DNA of 64,000 bases from Okeania sp. KiyG1 (GTDB lineage Bacteria; Cyanobacteriota; Cyanobacteriia; Cyanobacteriales; Microcoleaceae). Location: assembly GCF_014132355.1 (NCBI RefSeq), contig NZ_BLZO01000085.1, positions 124,001 through 188,000 on the forward strand, in the 5' to 3' direction. A program made the position numbers and the translations under genes. The notes beneath the pieces were generated by a model, which worked only from the letters and a program-made list of their open reading frames with translations, made no database searches and was not told the origin of the DNA. Below, piece by piece: positions 3,101-50,261 of the stretch. Numbering within the stretch: the first letter of the stretch is position 1; each line of letters opens with the position of its first letter.

Positions 3101-4195
3101 TCAACCAAAACTATCAGATGCAAAAAAACCTACATTTCGATTATTATCATCAATACCAATCAAAATTATCCCATCATTACTACTATCACCAGAATCTAAA
3201 CTATTATCTGAAGCAGAAGTATAACCATTAGTAACTGCTTGAGTTTTAGCAATACCTTGAGAAACTACTTGTAGTAATTTACGAGGAGAAAAAGACTCTA
3301 ATTCTACATAAAATCCTGCCTCTAACCATGCTAATTCATCTGTTGATAAAGTTGACTTAACTGCTGTAGGTATTTTTCGCCCTCGTCCTGCTGATACATC
3401 TGATTTTAAAATCCACATATTCTTACTAGCAAATACATGACGTGGCAATAATCCTAAATCATAAATAATTAGATTATTTCCGCCAAACCAATTAGGACTA
3501 TTTCGCAGTTCATTGATCGTCGTAACTCCACGGGGGGTAGCACTATGAAAAGCATAAACTTTTAAATCTGGATTTTGTTTTAACATTTGCATTACGGTAC
3601 TAAAAATATTCTCGGGATATCCATCAATACTTAGTACAGCGCAATTATGTTCAAAGTGGAAATTATTAGCTATTAAAAACTGAGCAATTTCGGCAGTGTC
3701 ACACACAATAACTCGGTCAAAACTATAAGCTGTAACTTCAGAATTAATTTGCATAGGTTCGCTCATTTCTTTGGAGGGAGCTAAAACATTTGTCACCTCA
3801 CCATTAATTTCTTCCCAACGACTCAACCATTGGGTAATTTCACTTTGCTTAAACTGAAGTGACTGGGGTATTTTATATTGAATACTTAGTTGTCGCGTAC
3901 CAAAATAAATTAAGAATATTCCTAAACCAATACCTAACAAAAATAAGAAAAATGCTGTATTTGTCACGGTGGAGAATTTAAAAAACCAAACTAAAACAGC
4001 AACTAGAATTAATCCTCCAAGAATTTGCATAGCTCTGGCAAAACTTCTTCTGGTTTTAGGTTGATAATCCTGTGATTGACTACCAGAAGTAAAAAGTAAT
4101 ATTAACACTAAAAATACTATAGATAAATATATTCTTATTTCTAATTGAAAACCCAAACTAAAAATCCTAAGAAAATAATGAGAAAAACTGAACAT
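3101..4195 (-). CDS. Zinc-ribbon membrane protein copy 3, C-terminal part (split gene)
   Basis: Exact protein duplicate of the frame at 1600-2694, displaced by 1501 bases. It has the same overlap (55 bases) and the same -1 frame relation to its zinc-ribbon ORF (4141-4440). Because the lesion or shift site is shared by copies 2 and 3, it predates their duplication, unless an assembly has repeated one copy. Two membrane segments near the start and a soluble domain of unknown function. Confidence 0.7.
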   Translation of the reverse strand: MFSFSHYFLRIFSLGFQLEIRIYLSIVFLVLILLFTSGSQSQDYQPKTRRSFARAMQILGGLILVAVLVWFFKFSTVTNTAFFLFLLGIGLGIFLIYFGTRQLSIQYKIPQSLQFKQSEITQWLSRWEEINGEVTNVLAPSKEMSEPMQINSEVTAYSFDRVIVCDTAEIAQFLIANNFHFEHNCAVLSIDGYPENIFSTVMQMLKQNPDLKVYAFHSATPRGVTTINELRNSPNWFGGNNLIIYDLGLLPRHVFASKNMWILKSDVSAGRGRKIPTAVKSTLSTDELAWLEAGFYVELESFSPRKLLQVVSQGIAKTQAVTNGYTSASDNSLDSGDSSNDGIILIGIDDNNRNVGFFASDSFG

Positions 4196-22307: not shown

Positions 22308-23450
22308 ATGAAATCCATTAGAACAAAGCTGAAACTTAATAATAAACAGAAAACTCTGATGGCTCAACACGCTGGCTATTCACGCTGGTGTTATAACTGG
22401 GGTTTAAGTTTGTGGAATGCTGCTTACAAAGATGGTTATAAGCCAAACGCCCGTAAGCTCAGAAAGGTTTTTACCAATCACACAAAACCCCTCTACCCCT
22501 GGATGAAAAACTTATCGTCTAAAGTTTATCAATATGCTTTTATTAACTTGGGTGAAGCATTTAAAAGGTTTTTTCAAGGTCTAGGTAAACGCCCACGGTT
22601 TAAGAAGAAAGGTAAGTCTGATTCATTCACAATTGATAATTGTGGAAAACCAATAGAATTAAACGGATGGAGTCACAAATTACCTTTTATTGGTATTGTG
22701 AAAACTTATGAACCCATTGAAGCAACAACTCAAAAAATAACTATCAGCAGACAAGCTGGTGATTGGTATTTAAGTTGTAGGGGCGAACGGCCGTTCGCCC
22801 CTACGAATGAATTTACTCCGACTTCAACACCAAAAACTACAGAAGTTGTAGGTGTAGATTTAGGAATTAAGACACTAGCAACACTAAGTACAGGTGAAGT
22901 CTTCGAGAGTGTTAAGCCTTACAAAAAAGCGCAAAACAGATTAGCTAAATTACAACGACAACTAAGTAGGAAAGTTAAGCATTCAAGCAATTGGTACAAA
23001 GCAGTAGTCAAGCTAGCCAAACAACATAGACGAGTAGCTAATATCCGTAGAGATGCACTTAATAAATTGACAACATATTTAGCCAAAAACCACGGCATTG
23101 TTGTGATTGAGGATTTGAATGTATCTGGAATGTTAGCTAACCATAAGCTAGCTAAGTCTATAGCCGACCAAGGATTTTACGAGTTTAGAAGACAGCTAGA
23201 ATACAAGTGTCAATGTTATGGCGGTGAATTAGTAGTAGTAGACAGATTTTTTCCATCTTCTAAGACTTGCTCTAGTTGTGGTCATGTACAGGATATGCCT
23301 TTGAATATCAGAACTTATGACTGCCCAGAATGTGGCCTATCAATTGACCGAGACTTGAACGCCTCAATTAATTTAAGAAATGCGGTCGGCTTGACCGTGA
23401 ATGCCTGTGGACGGAGTGCTGCCGACAGTTCCGGTGGAAGCAGGAAGTAA
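22308..23450 (+). CDS. tnpB: IS200/IS605-type TnpB nuclease, stand-alone
   Basis: 380 residues with the complete RuvC set: GVDLGIKTLATLSTG (Asp near 183), VVIEDLNVSGML (Glu near 267) and DRDLNASINL (Asp near 349), with the zinc finger CSSCGHVQ ... CPECG between them. TnpB is an RNA-guided nuclease. No TnpA is next to it, so it is an orphan or IS607-like remnant. A 28-bp perfect palindrome (22777-22804) sits in frame in the protein, encoding RGERPFAPTN just ahead of the first RuvC motif. The frame is intact. Start ATG follows TCAGGA; the 5' leader carries the partly palindromic GCTGCACTCACTCAGGAATG. Confidence 0.9.
   Translation: MKSIRTKLKLNNKQKTLMAQHAGYSRWCYNWGLSLWNAAYKDGYKPNARKLRKVFTNHTKPLYPWMKNLSSKVYQYAFINLGEAFKRFFQGLGKRPRFKKKGKSDSFTIDNCGKPIELNGWSHKLPFIGIVKTYEPIEATTQKITISRQAGDWYLSCRGERPFAPTNEFTPTSTPKTTEVVGVDLGIKTLATLSTGEVFESVKPYKKAQNRLAKLQRQLSRKVKHSSNWYKAVVKLAKQHRRVANIRRDALNKLTTYLAKNHGIVVIEDLNVSGMLANHKLAKSIADQGFYEFRRQLEYKCQCYGGELVVVDRFFPSSKTCSSCGHVQDMPLNIRTYDCPECGLSIDRDLNASINLRNAVGLTVNACGRSAADSSGGSRK
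22777..22804. repeat. 28-bp perfect palindrome inside tnpB
   Basis: GTAGGGGCGAACGG followed directly by its reverse complement. A near-identical palindrome (GTAGGGGTTGACGG ... one mismatch) is intergenic at 60921-60948 and a right half (ATTCGCCCCTAC) occurs at 46160-46171. A mobile palindromic unit that landed in phase in a coding sequence. Confidence 0.9.
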
Positions 23451-23627: not shown

Positions 23628-23755
23628 TTGTCGATGATCGACAATAAAGATCGACATTTTTTGACAAATTCCAAAATCATTGTACAGCAATATATTCAGC
23701 ATTAATTTAGGTAATATCGACAACAAAATTTTTACACCTTGTCGAAAATCGACAA
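23628..23755. promoter_or_regulatory. Two operator-like palindromes upstream of the CHAT gene
   Basis: TTGTCGATGATCGACAA at 23628-23644 (8-bp arms, 1-bp spacer) and TTGTCGAAAATCGACAA at 23739-23755 (7-bp arms, 3-bp spacer). Half-sites of the same word lie between them (GATCGACATTTTTTGACAAA at about 23648, ATCGACAACAAA at about 23716). The spacing and repetition suggest a repressor or regulator binding region for the gene starting at 23910. The regulator is unknown. The remainder of 23451-23909 holds a CAGTTAACAGTTATCAGTTA run. Confidence 0.5.
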
Positions 23756-23909
23756 AATTAAATTATCAGCATGGTTTAATAACAGTTAACAGTTATCAGT
23801 TATCAGTTAATAGTTATTAGCCATCTTTAGATGACCTCTGCTGTGGGCTAATAAATGAATTTCTTGGCGGATGAAAAAGAATCATTTAAACTTTCAGGGA
23901 GCAAATCCA

Positions 23910-26900
23910 ATGCTAATTCATTCATCTAAACAACAACGCAAAAATTATCAAGGCCGTTCTTTTAAAAATCAAGATTTGAGAGGTGTAGATTTCTCTTATG
24001 CAGATATAAGAGGAGCAGATTTTACTGGAGCAAATCTCACGAATGCTAAGTTCAATTATGCTTTAGCAGGATTAACAAAATCTCAGGTTATTAGACTATT
24101 TATTATTACAGCTATCCTATTTCTAACTGCGGGTATTGCAGCATTTATTGCCGTCTATGTTTCCTCACATTTTTTCCCTGATAAATCAGATGAAATAAAT
24201 TCTATTGTTGCAGTCATTTTAACACTTCGAGTATTTGTCAATATTAGTTTATTAGTAATTACTATTCGCAAAGGAATTTCAGAAACAATAAAATATTTCT
24301 TTTACCTGATTTCTCTAATTATACTAACAATTCCAATACTTACACAGTTGGGGATGAAGGAGGAAAAAGTTGATAGAGTTTTCCGTTTTTTCGGAATTTC
24401 AGAAGCACCAGATTGGGTTGTTTCATTAACAGGAAAATTAACAGTGTTCAGAAGTAGCAGCAGTATTATCAGAAGTGCAAATGATCTGTTAAATAGTAAT
24501 AGAGATGTAAGTCCGGTTGTGGATACAATTGTCACTATGATTATCTCTATAGCGGCCATATTTGTATTGATTTTCACCTTCAGTTTAGCAGTGGTTTTAG
24601 CTGAAATTATTGCTGAAAAATGGTTGAAAAATACAGCAGTAGTAGGAATATTAGCAGTAATTTCTGGAGTATCTACTGTTTCAAATTATTTTAGAAGTCG
24701 TCCTCGTTCATGGATTATTATTATCGTATATATAGCTTTTTCTTCAGCTCTAATATTAATAGCTAAACATCTGGCAAAAAAGATATTAGCTGAAGACCAA
24801 AATAATATTTTTCTCCGACGATTAGCTGTTGCCATTGGAACTCTAGGAGGCACTTGTTTTAAAAATGCAAATTTAACCGATGCCGACTTTAGTCATGCCA
24901 TCCTTAAAAGCACAAATTTTCGATTTGCTAATACTACTAGAACATTCTGGCGACAAACCAAATATTTAAAATTTGCCAGAGTCGAAGCAACTATATTAGA
25001 AGATATAAAAGTCAGAGAATTATTAATAACCGGATATGGAAAAGACCAACAATATATAAGTGCCAACTTAAGAGGAGCAAACCTCATGAGTGCCGACTTG
25101 GGTAACGCCAATTTCAAACTAGCAGACTTAGGAGAAGCTTCCCTCAAAACTGCCAACTTAAACAACGCAAATTTAACCGAAACATTAGCAATAGGCACTA
25201 ACTTTACCACCGCTCAAATGTCAGGAACTTGTTTAGAAGGTTGGAATATTGACCACACTACTATCCTCGATCATATTGAATCAAAATACATCTATTTATT
25301 AGAAGAACCAAAACCAGAAACAGACGATAGAGAACGTCGTCCCAGTAGTGGATATTTCCAAAAAGGAGACTTTACAAAATTATTCACAGAAGTCTTAAAT
25401 ACTGTAGATTTAATATTCCGAAATGGAGTAGATGCCAAAGCATTTATGTCATCTTTCCAAGAAGTACAAGGGGAAAACCAAGACATCCCCATGAAAATTA
25501 GAGGTATGGAAAATAAAGGGGATGGAGTAGTAGTAATTACCATTGATGTACCCCCAGAAACAGATAAAGAAAAAATCCATCAGCAGTTTTTCCAATTCTA
25601 TGATGAAAATCTCAGAGTACTAGATGAAAAATATCAAAAAGAATTACAAGAAACCAAACGACAGATAAATCAAAATCTTCAGGACAGTGAAATAAAACAT
25701 CAGATAGAGTGGGCAGAAATCAAAAAACAAAATGCTCGCTCAGAAGAACAAAATAAATACATGATGTCTTTAGTTAATCAGATATTTCAAAAATCAACCT
25801 CTGCCAATTATTTAGTTACCCTCAATTTTGAAGGAGGAAATTTTCAAACAGGTTTTCCAGTAATTAGAGCAAATATTTGGTCAGACGGTCATCCTTTACC
25901 AACTTCTTTTGCCAGTAACTTACCCCCAAACTTAAAAATTCCTCAACTCTATCAATACTGGGGCCAAAAATATGAACAATTAAGAGAATACTATCGAATT
26001 TTAGGCTTCCTTCCTAGAATCAAAATGAAGGAAGAGCAGACAAAAAATTTTTCCAAAAAAGATATAGAGAAGAAAGCTCAGAAAATAATTATTCAGATTC
26101 GGGAATTAGAGAAAGAATGGCAGCTTCTCCTCAACAACTGGTTAAACAATTCAGATTTTAATCACATAGAAAAGGAACTACGGACTAAATTTAACCCCTC
26201 AGATAAAGTCCGACTAATTATCCAATCTGAAGATAATTTAATCCAGCACATTCCCTGGCATTTATGGAATTTTTTCTCAGATTATAAATCTGCTGAAACT
26301 GCCATAGGTCTGCCAGAAGCTAACCGAGTAGAAAAGTTAAATACTGCCAGGGAAAAAATCCGCATCTTAGCAATTTTTGGAGACGACAAAGGAATAAATG
26401 TTGAAGCAGATAAAGAATATTTGTCTAGTTTCTCCACAGAAGCAGAAATTCTCCCTTTAGTTAAACCAAGTCGCCAAGAACTAGACCAAAAATTATGGGA
26501 TGAAAAAGGTTGGGATATTATTTGTTTTTCTGGTCATAGTGAAAGTAAGCCTGATGGGAGTACCGGATACTTCTATTTAGGAAATCAAACAAAAATAACA
26601 ATAGAGGAATTAGAAAATTCTCTGGCAAAAACTATTAGGAAAGGTCTACAGTTAGCAATTTTCAATTCTTGCGATGGATTAGGTTTAGCCAGACAACTTG
26701 CTAAGTTACATATTCCAGCAATTATTGTGATGCGAGAAGAAGTAGCAGATGTAGTTGCCCAGAAATTTTTACAGGATTTTCTGGAGTTATTTGCTAGTGG
26801 TAAATCTCTATATATTTCTGTGCGAGAAGCGAGGGAAAAATTACAAGTAATGGAAGATAAATTTCCTGGTGCGAGTTGGTTGCCAGTCATTTGTCAAAAT

Positions 26901-26951
26901 TCTGCAGAAATATCTCCGTCATTCCAGTGCGGGCATCTTGCCCGCCAGTAA
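23910..26951 (+). CDS. Pentapeptide-repeat membrane protein with C-terminal CHAT protease domain (copy 1)
   Basis: About 1013 residues. In order: pentapeptide repeats (residues about 15-55, A-D/N-F/L pattern as in ADFTGANL), five to six membrane segments (about 57-290), a second pentapeptide block (about 316-460, including NLRGANLMSADLGNANF), a coiled coil (about 550-620), and a CHAT domain with FSGHSES (His near 875) and FNSCDGLGLA (Cys near 919), the caspase-like His-Cys dyad. The start was moved 13 codons in from the first ATG (23871) because AGGGAG and the MLIHS... start match the paralogue at 28522. It ends 26951 in a hairpin (26929-26945) that replaces the last 110 residues present in the paralogue. 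Paralogue identity is high throughout. Likely a membrane-anchored protease effector. Confidence 0.85.
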   Translation: MLIHSSKQQRKNYQGRSFKNQDLRGVDFSYADIRGADFTGANLTNAKFNYALAGLTKSQVIRLFIITAILFLTAGIAAFIAVYVSSHFFPDKSDEINSIVAVILTLRVFVNISLLVITIRKGISETIKYFFYLISLIILTIPILTQLGMKEEKVDRVFRFFGISEAPDWVVSLTGKLTVFRSSSSIIRSANDLLNSNRDVSPVVDTIVTMIISIAAIFVLIFTFSLAVVLAEIIAEKWLKNTAVVGILAVISGVSTVSNYFRSRPRSWIIIIVYIAFSSALILIAKHLAKKILAEDQNNIFLRRLAVAIGTLGGTCFKNANLTDADFSHAILKSTNFRFANTTRTFWRQTKYLKFARVEATILEDIKVRELLITGYGKDQQYISANLRGANLMSADLGNANFKLADLGEASLKTANLNNANLTETLAIGTNFTTAQMSGTCLEGWNIDHTTILDHIESKYIYLLEEPKPETDDRERRPSSGYFQKGDFTKLFTEVLNTVDLIFRNGVDAKAFMSSFQEVQGENQDIPMKIRGMENKGDGVVVITIDVPPETDKEKIHQQFFQFYDENLRVLDEKYQKELQETKRQINQNLQDSEIKHQIEWAEIKKQNARSEEQNKYMMSLVNQIFQKSTSANYLVTLNFEGGNFQTGFPVIRANIWSDGHPLPTSFASNLPPNLKIPQLYQYWGQKYEQLREYYRILGFLPRIKMKEEQTKNFSKKDIEKKAQKIIIQIRELEKEWQLLLNNWLNNSDFNHIEKELRTKFNPSDKVRLIIQSEDNLIQHIPWHLWNFFSDYKSAETAIGLPEANRVEKLNTAREKIRILAIFGDDKGINVEADKEYLSSFSTEAEILPLVKPSRQELDQKLWDEKGWDIICFSGHSESKPDGSTGYFYLGNQTKITIEELENSLAKTIRKGLQLAIFNSCDGLGLARQLAKLHIPAIIVMREEVADVVAQKFLQDFLELFASGKSLYISVREAREKLQVMEDKFPGASWLPVICQNSAEISPSFQCGHLARQ
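26929..26945. repeat. GCGGGCA hairpin ending the CHAT reading frame
   Basis: GCGGGCA-TCT-TGCCCGC, a 7-bp inverted repeat of the type scattered in cyanobacterial genomes. It lies in frame at the very end of the CHAT protein (last residues CGHLARQ), and homology to the paralogue stops just here. It therefore probably truncated the gene. Confidence 0.65.
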
Positions 26952-27226
26952 TGTACCTTTATTAATTATCAGTAGGTGCTTATCAATTAAATCAGATAAT
27001 AACTAATTGCCCAAATTTGATAGGACTATAAAGAGTCAATAATATTGTCACACTTTTACTATTGTTAGACACAAATATAGGTAGAGGTACTGTGGAGCGC
27101 TAAGTCATTTCTATTATGAAAATTTAGTCAGACTAGAAAGTATAGTACTGCAACACCAAATTTCAAAAAGGTGCTTACAGTAAAATAATCTACAAAACCC
27201 AGACCTTTACCAAAAAAGCATTAGAA

Positions 27227-28318
27227 ATGGATGACTTAAATCACGAACTAAACAGTAAGATAGGCAGGATGCTAGATTCTAAATATTTTCTGGCATTTAT
27301 TGATAAAAAGCTTAAGCAATTTAGATTACATTCTTATTATGATGCAATTTATATAGTTGTCAAAACCCGTGAAATTGCTTTAGAAAAAATTGTATCTGGA
27401 GAAATGCTTGATGCTTGCTTAAAGAGAATTTGTTTGAGTGTTATTAAAAATCTTGAGGAAAAAACAGAGTCTGAAAAATTAGTAGAAAATAAAACTAATG
27501 ACTTCAATCAAGAAGTAAACAGTAAGATATACGGGATGCTAGAGTCTGAATATTTTCTGGCATTTATTGACCACAAGCTCAAGCAACATAGGCTAGATTT
27601 TTATTATGACTTGATGGATATAGTTGTCGAAGCTCGTGAAATTGCTTTAGAAAAAATTATATCTGGAGAAATAGTTGAAAATTTTGATGCTTGGTTCAGG
27701 AGAATCTGTTTTAACGTTATTAGAAATCTTGCCAAAAAAACAAAGTCTCAAAAGTTCGTAGAAAATAAAACTAAAGAAGTCAACCGCGAGATATACAGGA
27801 TGCTAAAGTCTGAATATTTTCTGGCATTTATTGACCACAAGCTCAAGCAATATAGGCTAGATTTTTATTATGACTTGATGGACGTAGTTTTAAAAGCTCG
27901 TGAAATTGCTTTAGGAAAAATTATACCTGGGAAAATAGTTGTTGAAAATTTTGATGCTTGGTTCAGAAAAATCTGTTTTAACGTCATTAGAAATTTTGCC
28001 AAAAAGACAAAATCTGGAAAATTCGCTGAATCTAAACTAAAAAACAAAAGCAGTCTAACTAACCCAAAAGAAGATTTAATATATGCAACAGAGCCTAACC
28101 TGAAATTATTAGGTAAGGGTTGGGAAAAGTTAAGTGAAGTAGAAAAAGTTATTTTGTGGTTGAGAGAGGTTGAAGAATATTCATGGAAAGAAGTGGCAAA
28201 AAGCATTGCTGATTTTGAGGAATTAATTATTAAGGATTTAGATGATGAGAAAAAGTTGGTCGATAGGGTTCGACAAAAAGGAAGAAGAGCTTTACAAAAA
28301 TTACGAGATTCGTTTTAG
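27227..28318 (+). CDS. Sigma-70-like protein with triplicated sigma-2 region
   Basis: 363 residues. Three tandem copies of a module of about 92 residues (1-91, 92-185, 186-285), each with ESEYFLAFIDHKLKQHRLDF-type and VEAREIALEKIISGEI-type helices, NFDAWFRRICFNVIRNLAKK and a Lys/Glu-rich link. Each module resembles sigma region 2 of ECF-type factors (AWxxRIxxNxxxN). The C-terminal 70 residues (WEKLSEVEKVILWLREVEEY followed by a helix-turn-helix and RRALQKLR) look like sigma region 4. No sigma-3. Repeat 1 is degenerate (no Ala-Trp in the third helix). Placed between the two CHAT genes, same strand. Might be a transcription or assembly adaptor rather than a working sigma factor. Confidence 0.7.
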   Translation: MDDLNHELNSKIGRMLDSKYFLAFIDKKLKQFRLHSYYDAIYIVVKTREIALEKIVSGEMLDACLKRICLSVIKNLEEKTESEKLVENKTNDFNQEVNSKIYGMLESEYFLAFIDHKLKQHRLDFYYDLMDIVVEAREIALEKIISGEIVENFDAWFRRICFNVIRNLAKKTKSQKFVENKTKEVNREIYRMLKSEYFLAFIDHKLKQYRLDFYYDLMDVVLKAREIALGKIIPGKIVVENFDAWFRKICFNVIRNFAKKTKSGKFAESKLKNKSSLTNPKEDLIYATEPNLKLLGKGWEKLSEVEKVILWLREVEEYSWKEVAKSIADFEELIIKDLDDEKKLVDRVRQKGRRALQKLRDSF

Positions 28319-28521
28319 AGAAAATTATTAGTACAACTCAATTAATTATACGGAAGGTTAAAGGGGATTAGTTAAAATAAATATTGTATACAGTTAAGAT
28401 ATTCTTCTATCTCTAAAGAATTTGGTGGTGGTGATTGAGAAAAGCTAAGGTTTAGTTAGTCTGAAAAAATATTGGGGGGGATAGAGAAATTATTGAGACG
28501 AAAGAAATAGGAGTTAATCCA

Positions 28522-31500
28522 ATGCTAAATCATTCATTTCAACAACCACGCAGAAATCTTTCTAGTCGTTCGTTTAAAAATCAAGATTTGAGAGGTGCAG
28601 ATTTCTCTTATGCAGATATTAGAGGAGCAGATTTTACTGGGGCAAATCTTAGGGATGCTAAGTTCAACTATGCTTTAGCAGGATTAACAAAACCTCAGAC
28701 TAGACTTATTTTTATTTTGGTAGTTATCCTATCTATAGTTGCAGCTATGGCTGTATATGTTGCTGGTTATATTCCGATCAAATTTATTCTTAATCAAATA
28801 AACCAATCAATTCCTATTTATATCAGTTTAGTTCTTTTAATTCTGCAAGAACTTGGAAGTATTGGCTTATTAGTAGTCGCAATTCGTCAAGGAGTTCAAA
28901 GAGCTATAGGATATTTATTTCCTGTAATTTCTCTAATGATAATAACAATTCCAATATTGGCAGTATTTGGCGTGCCTGAATATCAAGTTATGGAATGGTT
29001 GATTTTTTTTGGAGGATGTTTAAGCTTTTTAGGAATTTTTGTATTAATTTTTAGTCTTAGTTTAGCAGTAGCTTTAGCTGAAATTATTTCTGGTAAGTGG
29101 TTGGCAAATATAGTGTTTATTGGAACAGTTACTCTGTCTATTGGAGGAATTATTACTAAAATTTTGCACGACTATGACCGAGATAATATGACTCTTTGGT
29201 GGGTAGCTATTATCCTATCTGTAGGTATCTCCTTAACTTTTATATTAATAGCTCAATATCTGGCAAAAAAGATATTAGCCGAAGACGAAAAAAATATTTT
29301 TATCCGACAATTAGCTGTTGCCATTGGAACTATAGGAAGCACCAATTTTGAAAATGCTAATTTAACCGATGCCGACTTTAGTCATGCCATTCTCAAAAGC
29401 ACAAATTTTCGATTTGCTAATACTACTAGAACATTCTGGCGAGAAACCAAATATTTAAAATTTGCCAGAGTCGAAGCAACTATATTAGTAGATATAAAAG
29501 TCAGAGAATTATTAATAACTGGATATGGAAGAGGCCAACAATATATAGGAGCAAACTTAAGAGGGGCAAACCTCATGTGTGCCGATCTGAGTAACGCCAA
29601 TTTAAAACTAGCAAACTTAGGGGAAGCTTCCCTAAAAGCTGCTTGTTTAAACAATGCAAATTTAACAGAAGTATCAGCAATAGGCACTAATTTTACCAAC
29701 GCTCAAATGTCAGGAACTTGCTTAGAAGCTTGGAATATTGACTACACTACTATCCTCGATTATATTGAATCAAAATATATCTATTTATTAGAGGAACCAT
29801 TACCAGAAACTTGCGATAGAGAGCGTCGCCCTAGTAGTGGATATTTTCAACCGGGAGACTTTACAAAATTATTCACAGAAGTCTTGAATACTGTGGATTT
29901 AATTTTCCGAAATGGGGTGGATGCTAAAGCTTTTGTGTCATCTTTCCAACAGATACAAGTGGAAAAAGAGGGCATACCGATGAGAATTCAAAGTATGGAA
30001 AATAAAGGTGATGGAGTAGTGGTAATTAGAATTGATGTCCCCCCAGAAACGGAGAAAGAAAAAATACATCGGGAGTTTCTGCAATTATATGATGAAAATT
30101 TGAGAGTGCTAGAGGAAAAATATCAGAAAGAATTGCAAGAAATCAAACGACAGATAAATCAAAATATTCAGGAAGGTGAGAGAAAATATCAGATAGAGTT
30201 GGCAGAAATAGAGAGAAAATATCAGATAGAGTTGGCAGAAATAAAGAAACAAAATGTTCGTTCAGAAGAGCAAAAGAATTACATGATGTCTTTGGTTGAC
30301 CAGATATTTCAAAAATCAACATCTTCTAATTATTTGGTGACTCTCAATTTTGAAGCGGGAAATTTTGAAACAGGTTTTCCAGTTATTAGAGCAAATATTT
30401 GGTCAGACTCTCATCCTTTACCAATTTCTTTTAGGGGTAACCTAACCCCCAAATTAGAAATTCCTCAGCTATATCAAGACTGGAGAGAAAAATATGAACA
30501 ATTAACAGAATTACATAGTCATTTAGGCTTGCTTCCTAGAATTAAAATGAAGAAGGAACAGACAACAAATTTTTCCAAAAAAGATATAGAGAAGAAAGCT
30601 CAGAAAATAATTAGTCAGATTCGGGAATTAGAGAAAGAGTGGCGATCGCTCCTTAATAACTGGTTGAACGATCCAAATTTTAACCGCATAGAAAAGGAGC
30701 TACGAACTAAATTTAATCCCTCAGACAAAGTAAGGTTAATTATCCAATCTGAAGATATTTTAATTCAGCGTCTTCCCTGGCACTTATGGAACTTTTTCTC
30801 AGATTATCTATTTGCTGAAACTGCTATAGGTTTGCCAGAAGCTAACCGAGTCGAAAAGTTTAATGTTGCTAGGGGAATAATCCGCATCTTAGCAATTTTT
30901 GGAGATGACAAAGGGATAAATATTGAAGCAGATAAACAATATTTATCTAGTTTATCCAGAGAAGCAGAAATTGTTTCTCTAGTTAAACCAAGTCGCCAAG
31001 AACTAGACCAAAAATTATGGGATGAAAAAGGTTGGGATATTATTTGTTTTTCTGGTCATAGTGAAAGTAAAGCTGATGGCAGTACCGGATGTTTTTATTT
31101 AGGAAATGAAACAAAAATGACAATTGAAGAATTAGAACAATCCCTGGCAACAGCTATTAGTAAAGGTTTACAATTAGCGATTTTTAATTCTTGCGATGGA
31201 TTAGGTTTAGCTCGACAACTTGCTAGGTTACATATTCCGGCAATTATTGTTATGAGAGAGAAAGGGCCAGATATAGTTACCCATAAATTTTTACAGGATT
31301 TTCTAGAGTTATTTGCTAGTGGAAAATCTCTATATATTTCTGTGCGACAAGCGAGGGAAAAATTACAAGTAATAGAAGATAAATTTCCTGGTGCGAGTTG
31401 GTTGCCAGTTATTTGTCAAAATTCCGCAGAAATACCTCCTAGTTGGCAAAGTTTACAAATTTCTCATGCCAATTTTGAGGGTGGTTTGACCAAATTATTA

Positions 31501-31776
31501 TCGTCTATTGAAACTGAAAAGTTTAAACGCCTCGCTTCAAAGCAAAAAAGTCTACTTCAACATTATTATGAATTGACAAATCTCTCAGAGTTATCTAAAC
31601 ATGAAGCCGAACAAATGGAAAAAATACTTGAAAGAGCAGAATCAGACGATTTACTAAATTATTGGATTGAAAAAATAGATCGCTTAGTTTATGAGGATTT
31701 AGGTTTATTTACTGAAGAAAAGCTTGACTATTATGAGAAGCAAAAAACAAGGGGTAAAGAATTTTTTGTTGATTAA
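28522..31776 (+). CDS. Pentapeptide-repeat membrane protein with CHAT protease domain (copy 2)
   Basis: 1084 residues, paralogue of the gene at 23910. Layout: pentapeptide block (13-56), membrane segments (58-250), pentapeptide block (273-413), the linker with RNGVDAKAFVSSFQ and PPETEKEKIHREF, coiled coil (510-583), then CHAT with FSGHSES (His near 845) and FNSCDGLGLA (Cys near 890), and a C-terminal helical tail (973-1084, with ASKQKSLLQHYYELTNLSEL). The coiled coil has an internal duplication (ERKYQIELAEI twice) absent in copy 1. AGGAGT precedes the ATG by ten bases. Downstream of the sigma-like gene by 203 bases. No separate substrate gene is visible. Confidence 0.85.
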   Translation: MLNHSFQQPRRNLSSRSFKNQDLRGADFSYADIRGADFTGANLRDAKFNYALAGLTKPQTRLIFILVVILSIVAAMAVYVAGYIPIKFILNQINQSIPIYISLVLLILQELGSIGLLVVAIRQGVQRAIGYLFPVISLMIITIPILAVFGVPEYQVMEWLIFFGGCLSFLGIFVLIFSLSLAVALAEIISGKWLANIVFIGTVTLSIGGIITKILHDYDRDNMTLWWVAIILSVGISLTFILIAQYLAKKILAEDEKNIFIRQLAVAIGTIGSTNFENANLTDADFSHAILKSTNFRFANTTRTFWRETKYLKFARVEATILVDIKVRELLITGYGRGQQYIGANLRGANLMCADLSNANLKLANLGEASLKAACLNNANLTEVSAIGTNFTNAQMSGTCLEAWNIDYTTILDYIESKYIYLLEEPLPETCDRERRPSSGYFQPGDFTKLFTEVLNTVDLIFRNGVDAKAFVSSFQQIQVEKEGIPMRIQSMENKGDGVVVIRIDVPPETEKEKIHREFLQLYDENLRVLEEKYQKELQEIKRQINQNIQEGERKYQIELAEIERKYQIELAEIKKQNVRSEEQKNYMMSLVDQIFQKSTSSNYLVTLNFEAGNFETGFPVIRANIWSDSHPLPISFRGNLTPKLEIPQLYQDWREKYEQLTELHSHLGLLPRIKMKKEQTTNFSKKDIEKKAQKIISQIRELEKEWRSLLNNWLNDPNFNRIEKELRTKFNPSDKVRLIIQSEDILIQRLPWHLWNFFSDYLFAETAIGLPEANRVEKFNVARGIIRILAIFGDDKGINIEADKQYLSSLSREAEIVSLVKPSRQELDQKLWDEKGWDIICFSGHSESKADGSTGCFYLGNETKMTIEELEQSLATAISKGLQLAIFNSCDGLGLARQLARLHIPAIIVMREKGPDIVTHKFLQDFLELFASGKSLYISVRQAREKLQVIEDKFPGASWLPVICQNSAEIPPSWQSLQISHANFEGGLTKLLSSIETEKFKRLASKQKSLLQHYYELTNLSELSKHEAEQMEKILERAESDDLLNYWIEKIDRLVYEDLGLFTEEKLDYYEKQKTRGKEFFVD

Positions 31777-48626: not shown

Positions 48627-50261
48627 ATGAATAAAAAACAACCATCATCCTTATGGAAATCAATGACTGACAAGGCATCAACAGTCAGAGAAAATATTGG
48701 TAAAAAAGTATCTAAAGCGGGAAAGTCGATCGGTGAAAAAGCTGCCAAAACTGCTAAAAGTAAAGCTTCAGAAATGGAAGAAATTATCAGTAATAAAACA
48801 TCAAATGTTGATAACTTTTTTAGAGAAACTGTTAAAGAATCTACCTTGGGAAAACAGCAAACTAATTCTGAATCATCGCCAGAAATAGAAAATGATTTAG
48901 AACAAGAAGAAATATATCATATCTTTGTTGCTTATCAGGTTGCTAGTCAGGGAGGTACTCAAAAAGTAACTCTTAAATCAGGTAAAAGCTATAATGTGAA
49001 AATTCGCACTAATAGTACTGAAGGTTCTACTTTACGATTAAAAAAATGCGGTTTACAAGGAAATGATGCCTTTTTAGTTTTACATACTTTTTATAATCCT
49101 GAATTTAACCTAGACCGTCGGATGAATAATTTGATAATTAATTCATCAATTTATGAAAGAAGCAAAACTAGATGTTTAGAAGCTTATAACAGAATTAATG
49201 CTGGTTTATATGTTTATGATTTAGCAGCACTCAATCTATTAGATTTTCTTGTTAACTCTTCAAATATAGATTCTTTAATTGGTTTACGCTATACAATTGC
49301 CAGTGAAAATTCGCGGTGGATAGGTATTGATAAAAGTTTGGCAGAAGTTTTAGAGTTTGCCAATTTAAGCGAAGCTAAAAAATACCAAATCAAGAGTATT
49401 TATCAATATATTAAAGCAGCAGATCCTTTGCCTAAATTAGATGATTTTCAACAGTTAAATGCAATGATTTTAAATTCAGCGATCGCTTCTGAACTAAAAA
49501 ATAAATATTTATTGGCAAGTGCTACATCAACTGGGTTAAGGATAGATATGTTAATTGTAGATTTGATTTACAATAGCCCAGAAATAAATGATAATCAGCG
49601 TCGGAAATATTTATCGTTCTATCAACAGATTAAAGAAGGTGCAAAAGTGGCAGATAATTTTATTTCAAAAAGTTTAGACGCGATAATTATTCAGGCAAAA
49701 ATTCCGAGAATATGCAAGATTGTATATCAACTTCTAAGAGAAAGATATTTTGAAATAGAAATAGAATTAGAAAGGCTAGACAGGAAAGAATTTTATTCAG
49801 TTTTTAGCAAATTCAAGAAAGTAGAACAGTTTGTCAAACAGGCAGAAAATCCAATCAAAACTACAAATAGTTTCGGGAATATTGCCATTCAGAAAGGAAT
49901 GTTAATCGAGGAAGCAGATGATGCAGTAGTTAGTGGTGGTGTTGGAGTATTAGCAGGAGTAAAAGTATTAAAAGGAGGAGAAGCTTTAATTGGGGCCGTA
50001 GGTTTAGCAGCGATCGCCTCAACTTTAGAAATGAGTACTCAGGAGAAAATTAAATTAGGAATTACTGAGGAGGGAAATTTTTCTGGGGAGGTTGCTTATA
50101 GTGGAATTATGAATGCTATTAATCAAGTTAGTTGGATAATTGGTGATGGTGGAGAAAGAAAATTAGAGCAGAAATTAGATATTTTCGGAATGTTCAAAGG
50201 TAGTCAGGATAAAAAGCAAATTTTGCAAGAATTGGAAACTAAATTGTATAGTTCAAATTAA
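48627..50261 (+). CDS. Long protein of unknown function with Lys/Ala-rich start
   Basis: 544 residues. Residues 1-75 are Lys/Ala/Ser-rich with short repeated blocks (VSKAGKSIGEKAAKTAKSKA), predicted amphipathic or disordered. A beta-like module (about 90-150, HIFVAYQVASQGGTQKVTLK, KSYNVKIR) and a long helical part follow, then a glycine-rich hydrophobic stretch (about 430-455, SGGVGVLAGVKVLKGGEALI), as in membrane-tethered or pore-like segments. I do not recognise a family. A weak AGAGAG precedes the ATG. The gene converges on the GTPase at 50786 (525 bases apart), with a partial ORF between. Confidence 0.65.
   Translation: MNKKQPSSLWKSMTDKASTVRENIGKKVSKAGKSIGEKAAKTAKSKASEMEEIISNKTSNVDNFFRETVKESTLGKQQTNSESSPEIENDLEQEEIYHIFVAYQVASQGGTQKVTLKSGKSYNVKIRTNSTEGSTLRLKKCGLQGNDAFLVLHTFYNPEFNLDRRMNNLIINSSIYERSKTRCLEAYNRINAGLYVYDLAALNLLDFLVNSSNIDSLIGLRYTIASENSRWIGIDKSLAEVLEFANLSEAKKYQIKSIYQYIKAADPLPKLDDFQQLNAMILNSAIASELKNKYLLASATSTGLRIDMLIVDLIYNSPEINDNQRRKYLSFYQQIKEGAKVADNFISKSLDAIIIQAKIPRICKIVYQLLRERYFEIEIELERLDRKEFYSVFSKFKKVEQFVKQAENPIKTTNSFGNIAIQKGMLIEEADDAVVSGGVGVLAGVKVLKGGEALIGAVGLAAIASTLEMSTQEKIKLGITEEGNFSGEVAYSGIMNAINQVSWIIGDGGERKLEQKLDIFGMFKGSQDKKQILQELETKLYSSN

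Follow-up and report, generated by a model that had tools for sequence, protein, structure and literature searches.

A predicted membrane CHAT protein with a candidate anti-sigma-like domain beside a multi-module sigma factor in Okeania

Introduction

In the Type III-E CRISPR system, the CHAT protease Csx29 (TPR-CHAT) cleaves Csx30, an inhibitor of CASP-sigma (PMC10028731). Multicellular bacteria also carry gene neighbourhoods combining an EACC2-caspase, an extracytoplasmic function (ECF) sigma factor and DUF1822, which have been proposed as signalling or immunity systems (PMC8195603), so that the pairing of a caspase-like gene with an ECF sigma factor is already on record and is not new. Class I anti-sigma factors of the RseA and RsiW type are domains of about 100 amino acids (aa) with four helices, encoded beside ECF sigma factors and often N-terminal in larger proteins (PMC7406223). 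Here we analyse a stretch of 64,000 nucleotides from the filamentous cyanobacterium Okeania sp. KiyG1 (GCF_014132355.1, NZ_BLZO01000085.1, positions 124,001 to 188,000; "the window" throughout), which lies on contig C85 of an 11 Mb genome (G000). The window holds an ECF-type sigma factor gene and, adjacent and co-oriented, a gene for a CHAT protein (CHAT2) bearing the domain that is the usual partner of this sigma family, referred to here as the tail; a paralogue, CHAT1, lies upstream. We see about an even chance that CHAT2 is a membrane CHAT protease whose tail, a new anti-sigma-like domain, would hold the sigma factor, and that CHAT action would free it.

If so, CHAT2 would resemble the Type III-E protease in acting on an ECF sigma factor by way of an inhibitor of that factor. 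Type III-E keeps its inhibitor, Csx30, on a chain apart and is triggered by RNA bound to Cas7-11 (PMC10028731), whereas CHAT2 is predicted to be membrane-anchored with the presumed inhibitor in its own chain. By analogy, we regard Csx29/Csx30/CASP-sigma as the nearest proven case. Cas7-11 is larger than either CHAT1 or CHAT2, and the window contains no complete open reading frame (ORF) exceeding these two, hence no complete candidate for that effector. The locus shares with the EACC2-caspase systems a caspase-like protease gene beside an ECF sigma gene, but the partner here is the tail and not DUF1822 (PMC8195603). No Pfam match to DUF1822 was found among the 8 proteins encoded between 20335 and 36865, and the general Pfam scan of these 8 proteins, in which no EACC2 model was run by name, returned no EACC2. 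Elsewhere in the same genome (C94, L037:1974-5899), a CHAT gene stands in a row with a putative sigma-like ORF and a putative DUF1822-like ORF, both labelled by eye; neither our tail nor our sigma profile matches this locus. HetF, a cyanobacterial protein with roles in cell division and heterocyst formation, likewise has a CHAT domain, and is not known to have pentapeptide repeats or a sigma partner; CHAT1 matches the NCBIfam HetF model weakly (E = 2.3e-5), far below the cut-off. Like class I anti-sigma factors, the tail adjoins an ECF sigma gene and is often N-terminal in longer proteins, but it lacks detectable sequence similarity to them and is C-terminal in CHAT2 (comparison with PMC7406223). 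The literature searched contained no description of the tail domain, of how widely it occurs or of a CHAT protein fused to it, and 'anti-sigma' together with 'CHAT domain' led to PMC10028731 only.

Results

The sigma gene (27227..28318, 363 aa, from the ORF list and profile matches) and CHAT2 (28522..31776, 1084 aa) lie on the plus strand on either side of a 28319..28521 spacer. Pfam, hydropathy and profiles resolve CHAT2 into pentapeptide repeats, about six membrane segments, further pentapeptide repeats, a coiled region, the CHAT domain (30652..31425) and the tail (31525..31767, placed by homology and profile). The tail comprises about 80 residues and shares 41% identity, across 74 aa, with a small free-standing ORF that neighbours a single-module sigma gene elsewhere in the same genome. 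A class-level survey of 388 genomes from 160 genera with a six-sequence profile (A3) yielded 135 tail matches in 65 genomes and 31 genera. We fetched 60 stretches for reading, covering about half of these matches, mostly the top-scoring ones, with some weaker matches in long frames added. The loci so surveyed supplied most of the sequences for the refined profiles (47 tail and 46 sigma sequences), so that the counts that follow are not independent of model building. The tail was confirmed in 59 of the 60 stretches (not in L135), and a sigma-family ORF lay within 1 kb of it in 45 and anywhere in the stretch in 48, a number that the first six-sequence profiles also gave. Stretches lacking a sigma match include short contigs (L086, L109, L116), other architectures (L127-L130, L132, L133), and L114 and L136. 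By chance, about 1% of random 12 kb stretches would be expected to contain such a sigma gene, a rough estimate built on counts from other genomes (mostly 1-4 matches per 5-7 Mb), and none of five generic ECF loci of G000, read as a negative control, had a tail. At five single-module sigma loci (in G000, G043 and G044), a tail ORF adjoins the sigma gene in every one. The 50 one-to-one pairs are arranged divergently in 23 cases, sigma-first in 18, tail-first in 8 and convergently in 1.

The two families also co-vary. Distances among tails mirror those among sigma factors with r = 0.825 over 54 adjacent pairs from 40 genomes, a value inflated by shared genome ancestry, while 2000 permutations of the pairing reached at most 0.139. 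Comparing pairs inside a single genome removes the effect of species ancestry and gives r = 0.68, from 18 comparisons spread over 10 genomes and partly dependent on one another. Nearest foreign partners agree for 33 of the 54 pairs. That tail and sigma factor are partners is therefore well supported by linkage and co-variation, and the link proposed in the original prediction between a membrane CHAT protein and a sigma-like protein is supported by the shared partner domain, the conserved linkage and this co-variation.

What the partnership does is a separate matter. Linkage and co-variation show partnership and not the sign of its effect, and the tail might instead act positively, docking the sigma factor on CHAT2, which would deliver, mature or co-activate it. 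Such a role is compatible with the lack of similarity to class I anti-sigma domains and with two proteins (L129, L130) that carry a sub-threshold sigma-4 match (E about 1e-4) and a C-terminal tail in one chain. It sits less easily with the layout of several longer tail proteins. Most tail ORFs are short (47 of 64 are at most 250 aa); among the 17 that exceed 250 aa, 11 have the tail at the N-terminus. L123 encodes two tails, a membrane segment and then TPS and OprB parts, and L083, L087 and L100 encode two tails followed by a membrane segment and a coil, an order of N-terminal tail, membrane segment and secreted or coiled part that is an anti-sigma layout (compare PMC7406223). On balance we consider a positive role rather unlikely. 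In L124-L126, the tail is followed by long pentapeptide arrays. Scanning of 47 tail members found no fitting Pfam or NCBIfam family, and no Protein Data Bank sequence family fits the tail either. Because no sequence family or class I match was found, we call the tail anti-sigma-like by gene arrangement only, and on its sequence do not place it in class I.

The sigma protein itself departs from the ECF layout of one sigma-2 and one sigma-4. The family profile matches sigma-2 three times (aa 6-95, 98-184 and the start of 182-363) and sigma-4 once (the end of 182-363), corresponding to three tandem sigma-2-like modules at about 27242-27511, 27518-27778 and 27770-28040, with approximate inner borders, and a sigma-4 region at about 28090-28315, also approximate, all on the plus strand. 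Over a 168-nt core, the first module is 83% and the third 90% identical to the second, so the three sigma-2-like modules and sigma-4-like end read from the sequence at the outset hold. Such repetition of sigma-2 is seen in 5 of the 59 sigma ORFs examined. By itself, the window protein reaches NCBIfam sigma70-ECF TIGR02937 at E = 9.7e-7, under the cut-off, and Pfam gives no sigma-2 match and only sub-threshold sigma-4 matches. The 46-member profile, searched against solved structures, finds SigW (5wuq, E = 2e-9 over positions 7-180) and also SigL, SigH and RpoE; hhalign aligns the family with three cyanobacterial ECFs at a probability of 97.9; and sigma profile matches are present in all 62 family genomes, mostly near E = 1e-8, a level that generic ECFs would be expected to reach. 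The sigma-like protein thus descends from ECF sigma factors, and its binding of core polymerase and promoters is a prediction. In the named collection, the gene has two relatives, both in Okeania metagenome-assembled genomes, and tblastn of the sigma protein against plasmids gave no match. Separately, another contig of the genome (C55, L193:5035-7509) encodes a protein of 824 aa in which sigma-2 and sigma-4_2 each match twice, as if two ECF units shared one chain.

Could the protein have ceased to be a sigma factor, its repeated modules serving as a decoy, an adaptor or a CHAT substrate, with proteolysis or cell death as the output? Its repeated modules, the missing Pfam sigma-2 match and the broken or shortened state of two of the four multi-module genes are compatible with this, as is its fast evolution. 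Between the window and a second Okeania genome (G057), the ratio of nonsynonymous to synonymous substitution rates (dN/dS) is 0.54 for sigma and lower for CHAT2 (0.34) and the tail (0.38), which indicates moderate constraint on the unit, weakest on sigma. Set against loss of function are the sigma-4 end, kept at 82% identity between the window and G057, and the strong profile and hhalign support for the family over both sigma-2 and sigma-4, and we judge such a loss improbable.

CHAT1 (23871..26951, plus strand, 1026 aa, from the ORF list) is 70% identical to CHAT2 over 1023 aligned columns and probably starts at 23910, where the alignment with CHAT2 begins. Pentapeptide repeats and CHAT score above the Pfam cut-offs in both (41.2 and 32.7 bits for PF12770, cut-off 24), each has about six membrane segments in a hydropathy scan, and the His/Cys dyad consists of H889 and C934 in CHAT1 and of H846 and C891 in CHAT2 (31057-31059 and 31192-31194), with the GHS and NSC motifs also present in two Okeania relatives, G057 and G058. 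ORF positions, identity, Pfam, hydropathy and dyad thus agree with the early description of two CHAT paralogues flanking a sigma-like ORF on the plus strand. The two differ past residue ~976 of CHAT2, which continues into a long C-terminal extension that CHAT1 lacks. A phmmer search of the CHAT region against solved structures gave no meaningful match. On two other contigs of the genome (C77, C91), the N-terminal pentapeptide/membrane part of these proteins recurs with non-CHAT C-termini.

The order of genes in relatives separates CHAT1 from the unit. All of these genomes are drafts, and sequencing errors are a possible cause of broken frames. Among the Okeania loci read, the order is cyclase-sigma-CHAT2 in G056 and G058 and sigma-CHAT2 in G057, and CHAT1 is absent between the upstream gene and sigma in all three. 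A squalene-hopene cyclase lies upstream in G056, G058 and the window, where a TnpB-like gene and CHAT1 intervene. G057 and G058 encode CHAT with an in-frame tail; G056 retains it in fragments, with sigma, CHAT and tail pieces all on one contig. In L020 and L021, a CHAT gene begins after sigma and runs off the contig; the corresponding tail ends sit on other contigs (L184 and L182), so that their continuity with the CHAT start is presumed. In the window, the 275 bp preceding the sigma gene (26952..27226, plus strand) align with G057 in their 3' part, and the sigma-CHAT2 spacer is alignable over its length in three species and carries no plus-strand terminator-like site. The conserved unit is therefore two genes, in place of the three-gene CHAT/sigma/CHAT system first suggested, and CHAT1 is an extra paralogue of this lineage and probably not a required part. 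As separate observations, an IS605/TnpB-like OrfB gene (22308-23450) stands between the cyclase and CHAT1 in the window, and in Okeania SIO2F4 (L020:7388-9697) repetitive ORFs of MSDETLRFLQRN-type units lie between the cyclase and the sigma gene.

Since CHAT genes are abundant (65 PF12770 matches in G000), a sigma/tail pair might simply have landed by one of them, the fusion being functionless. The narrow range, with CHAT-linked tails in 5 of 62 family genomes belonging to two genera, and the decay seen in G056 and G044 would fit such an accident. The fused frame is nevertheless kept in G000, G057 and G058, dN/dS is low for CHAT2 and the tail, the spacer is conserved, and among 13 genomes of the two genera the multi-module sigma and the CHAT-linked tail occur together in 4, the tail only in 1 and neither in 8. 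Chance neighbourhood thus seems very improbable to us.

Two exact copies of the palindrome TTGTCGANNNTCGACAA, at 23628..23644 and 23739..23755, lie 111 bp apart before CHAT1, as the original prediction had noted. Within the window, 8 matches with at most 3 mismatches compare with 1.92 expected, and none of 100 shuffles reached 8. Genome-wide, at most 1 mismatch gives 22 forward matches vs 59 for the reversed control, which counts against a palindrome signal; because this count is not above the control, the case for the palindromes rests on spacing and conservation. The pair is kept before a CHAT1 relative elsewhere in G057, 112 bp apart and with 74% identity around it, and the sigma profile has no match in the 11 kb fetched there. 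Before sigma in L020 and L021, there is no TTGTCGANNNTCGACAA, the few near-matches all lying inside the sigma gene. The upstream conservation looked for thus applies to CHAT1 and not to sigma, and the palindromes appear to go with CHAT1 and not with the sigma unit. A three-gene operon run by them was rejected, as CHAT1 is missing from the sigma loci of Okeania relatives and the palindromes accompany CHAT1. Elsewhere in G000, 8 of the 10 further places read show similar close groups (at most 2 mismatches), mostly between unrelated genes. Grouped sites were seen at 23628-23755, on C6, C9, C94, C97, C106 and C143 of G000 and at L216:4057-4185, mostly about 99-148 bp apart and preceding unrelated genes and CHAT1 relatives. 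They may be multi-site operators of some regulator.

A defence role for the cluster is possible and gains no support here from PADLOC, in which none of the three cluster proteins had a significant match (best E 0.048) and 10 other ORFs of the window gave single matches to QueC (E = 2.7e-9) and PDC-S27 (E = 5.8e-5) only. Elsewhere in the window, two minus-strand ORFs (1600-2694 and 3101-4195) 1.5 kb apart are identical at 364/364 residues, reflecting either a recent tandem duplication or an artefact of assembly. Pfam, at a threshold of 1e-5, finds nothing in the copy scanned and nothing in a 544-aa ORF at 48627-50261.

Discussion

We propose that sigma and CHAT2 form a two-gene signalling unit. 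At rest, the tail would keep the sigma factor at the membrane; a signal at the pentapeptide/membrane part would turn on the CHAT protease, which would then cut itself, the tail or a neighbour, and the freed sigma factor would transcribe its targets. Tandem sigma-2 modules might, speculatively, give the tail more places to dock or change how the protein binds promoters or core polymerase, and CHAT1 would be a further paralogue that lacks the tail and has a palindromic control region to itself. Binding and restraint of sigma by the tail, sensing at the membrane and release by CHAT cleavage are all steps that we infer from the arrangement of genes and domains.

Several observations weigh against this model. 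Fusion of the tail to CHAT is local: with a CHAT profile built from 20 CHATs of G000 plus CHAT1 and CHAT2 (an earlier, narrow profile had given 0 matches in 2935 ORFs), CHAT occurred near the tail in 1 of the 60 fetched loci, and sigma-beside-CHAT as a general rule was rejected. The original prediction had tied its standing to sigma homologues lying next to CHAT genes; the wider sigma family does so rarely because its usual partner is the tail, the domain that CHAT2 carries. The multi-module sigma gene is frame-broken in G058 and shortened in G056, two of the four genomes having it, and 3 of 5 single-module sigma genes of the genus are shortened or interrupted (C73, C184, G044:C361). In G044, there are tandem CHATs with an out-of-frame tail 96% identical to that of the window and no match to a multi-module sigma; a CHAT1-like copy at this locus may therefore be a feature of the window's genus. 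Within the family, G057 and G058 hold tail ORFs whose stretches, L183 (12 kb) and L185 (a 3.7 kb contig), contain no sigma match. A membrane segment is predicted in only 12 of 64 tail ORFs. Comparison of the tail by hhalign with four cyanobacterial zf-HC2-bearing proteins, encoded beside ECF genes where read, gave a probability of 0.1. AlphaFold without an alignment predicts the tail to be helical (6-43, 47-62, 66-84 and 89-102) in a weak model with a predicted local distance difference test (pLDDT) score of 69.7, and for sigma a pLDDT of 34 gave no usable model.

In its boldest form, which we put forward only tentatively, the proposal is that the tail represents a new cyanobacterial anti-sigma class, unrelated to class I in sequence and serving an expanded ECF family, that CHAT2 is a single-chain switch joining membrane sensor, caspase-like protease and anti-sigma domain and freeing sigma by self-cleavage, and that the repeated sigma-2 modules set how many docking sites there are. 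Should the model be true, a whole group of cyanobacterial ECF sigma factors would gain a sequence-recognisable partner domain, which deserves a name, and CHAT2 would unite a caspase-like protease with a presumed sigma inhibitor in a single natural protein. It would also become testable whether bacterial CHAT proteases outside CRISPR loci switch transcription rather than kill cells.

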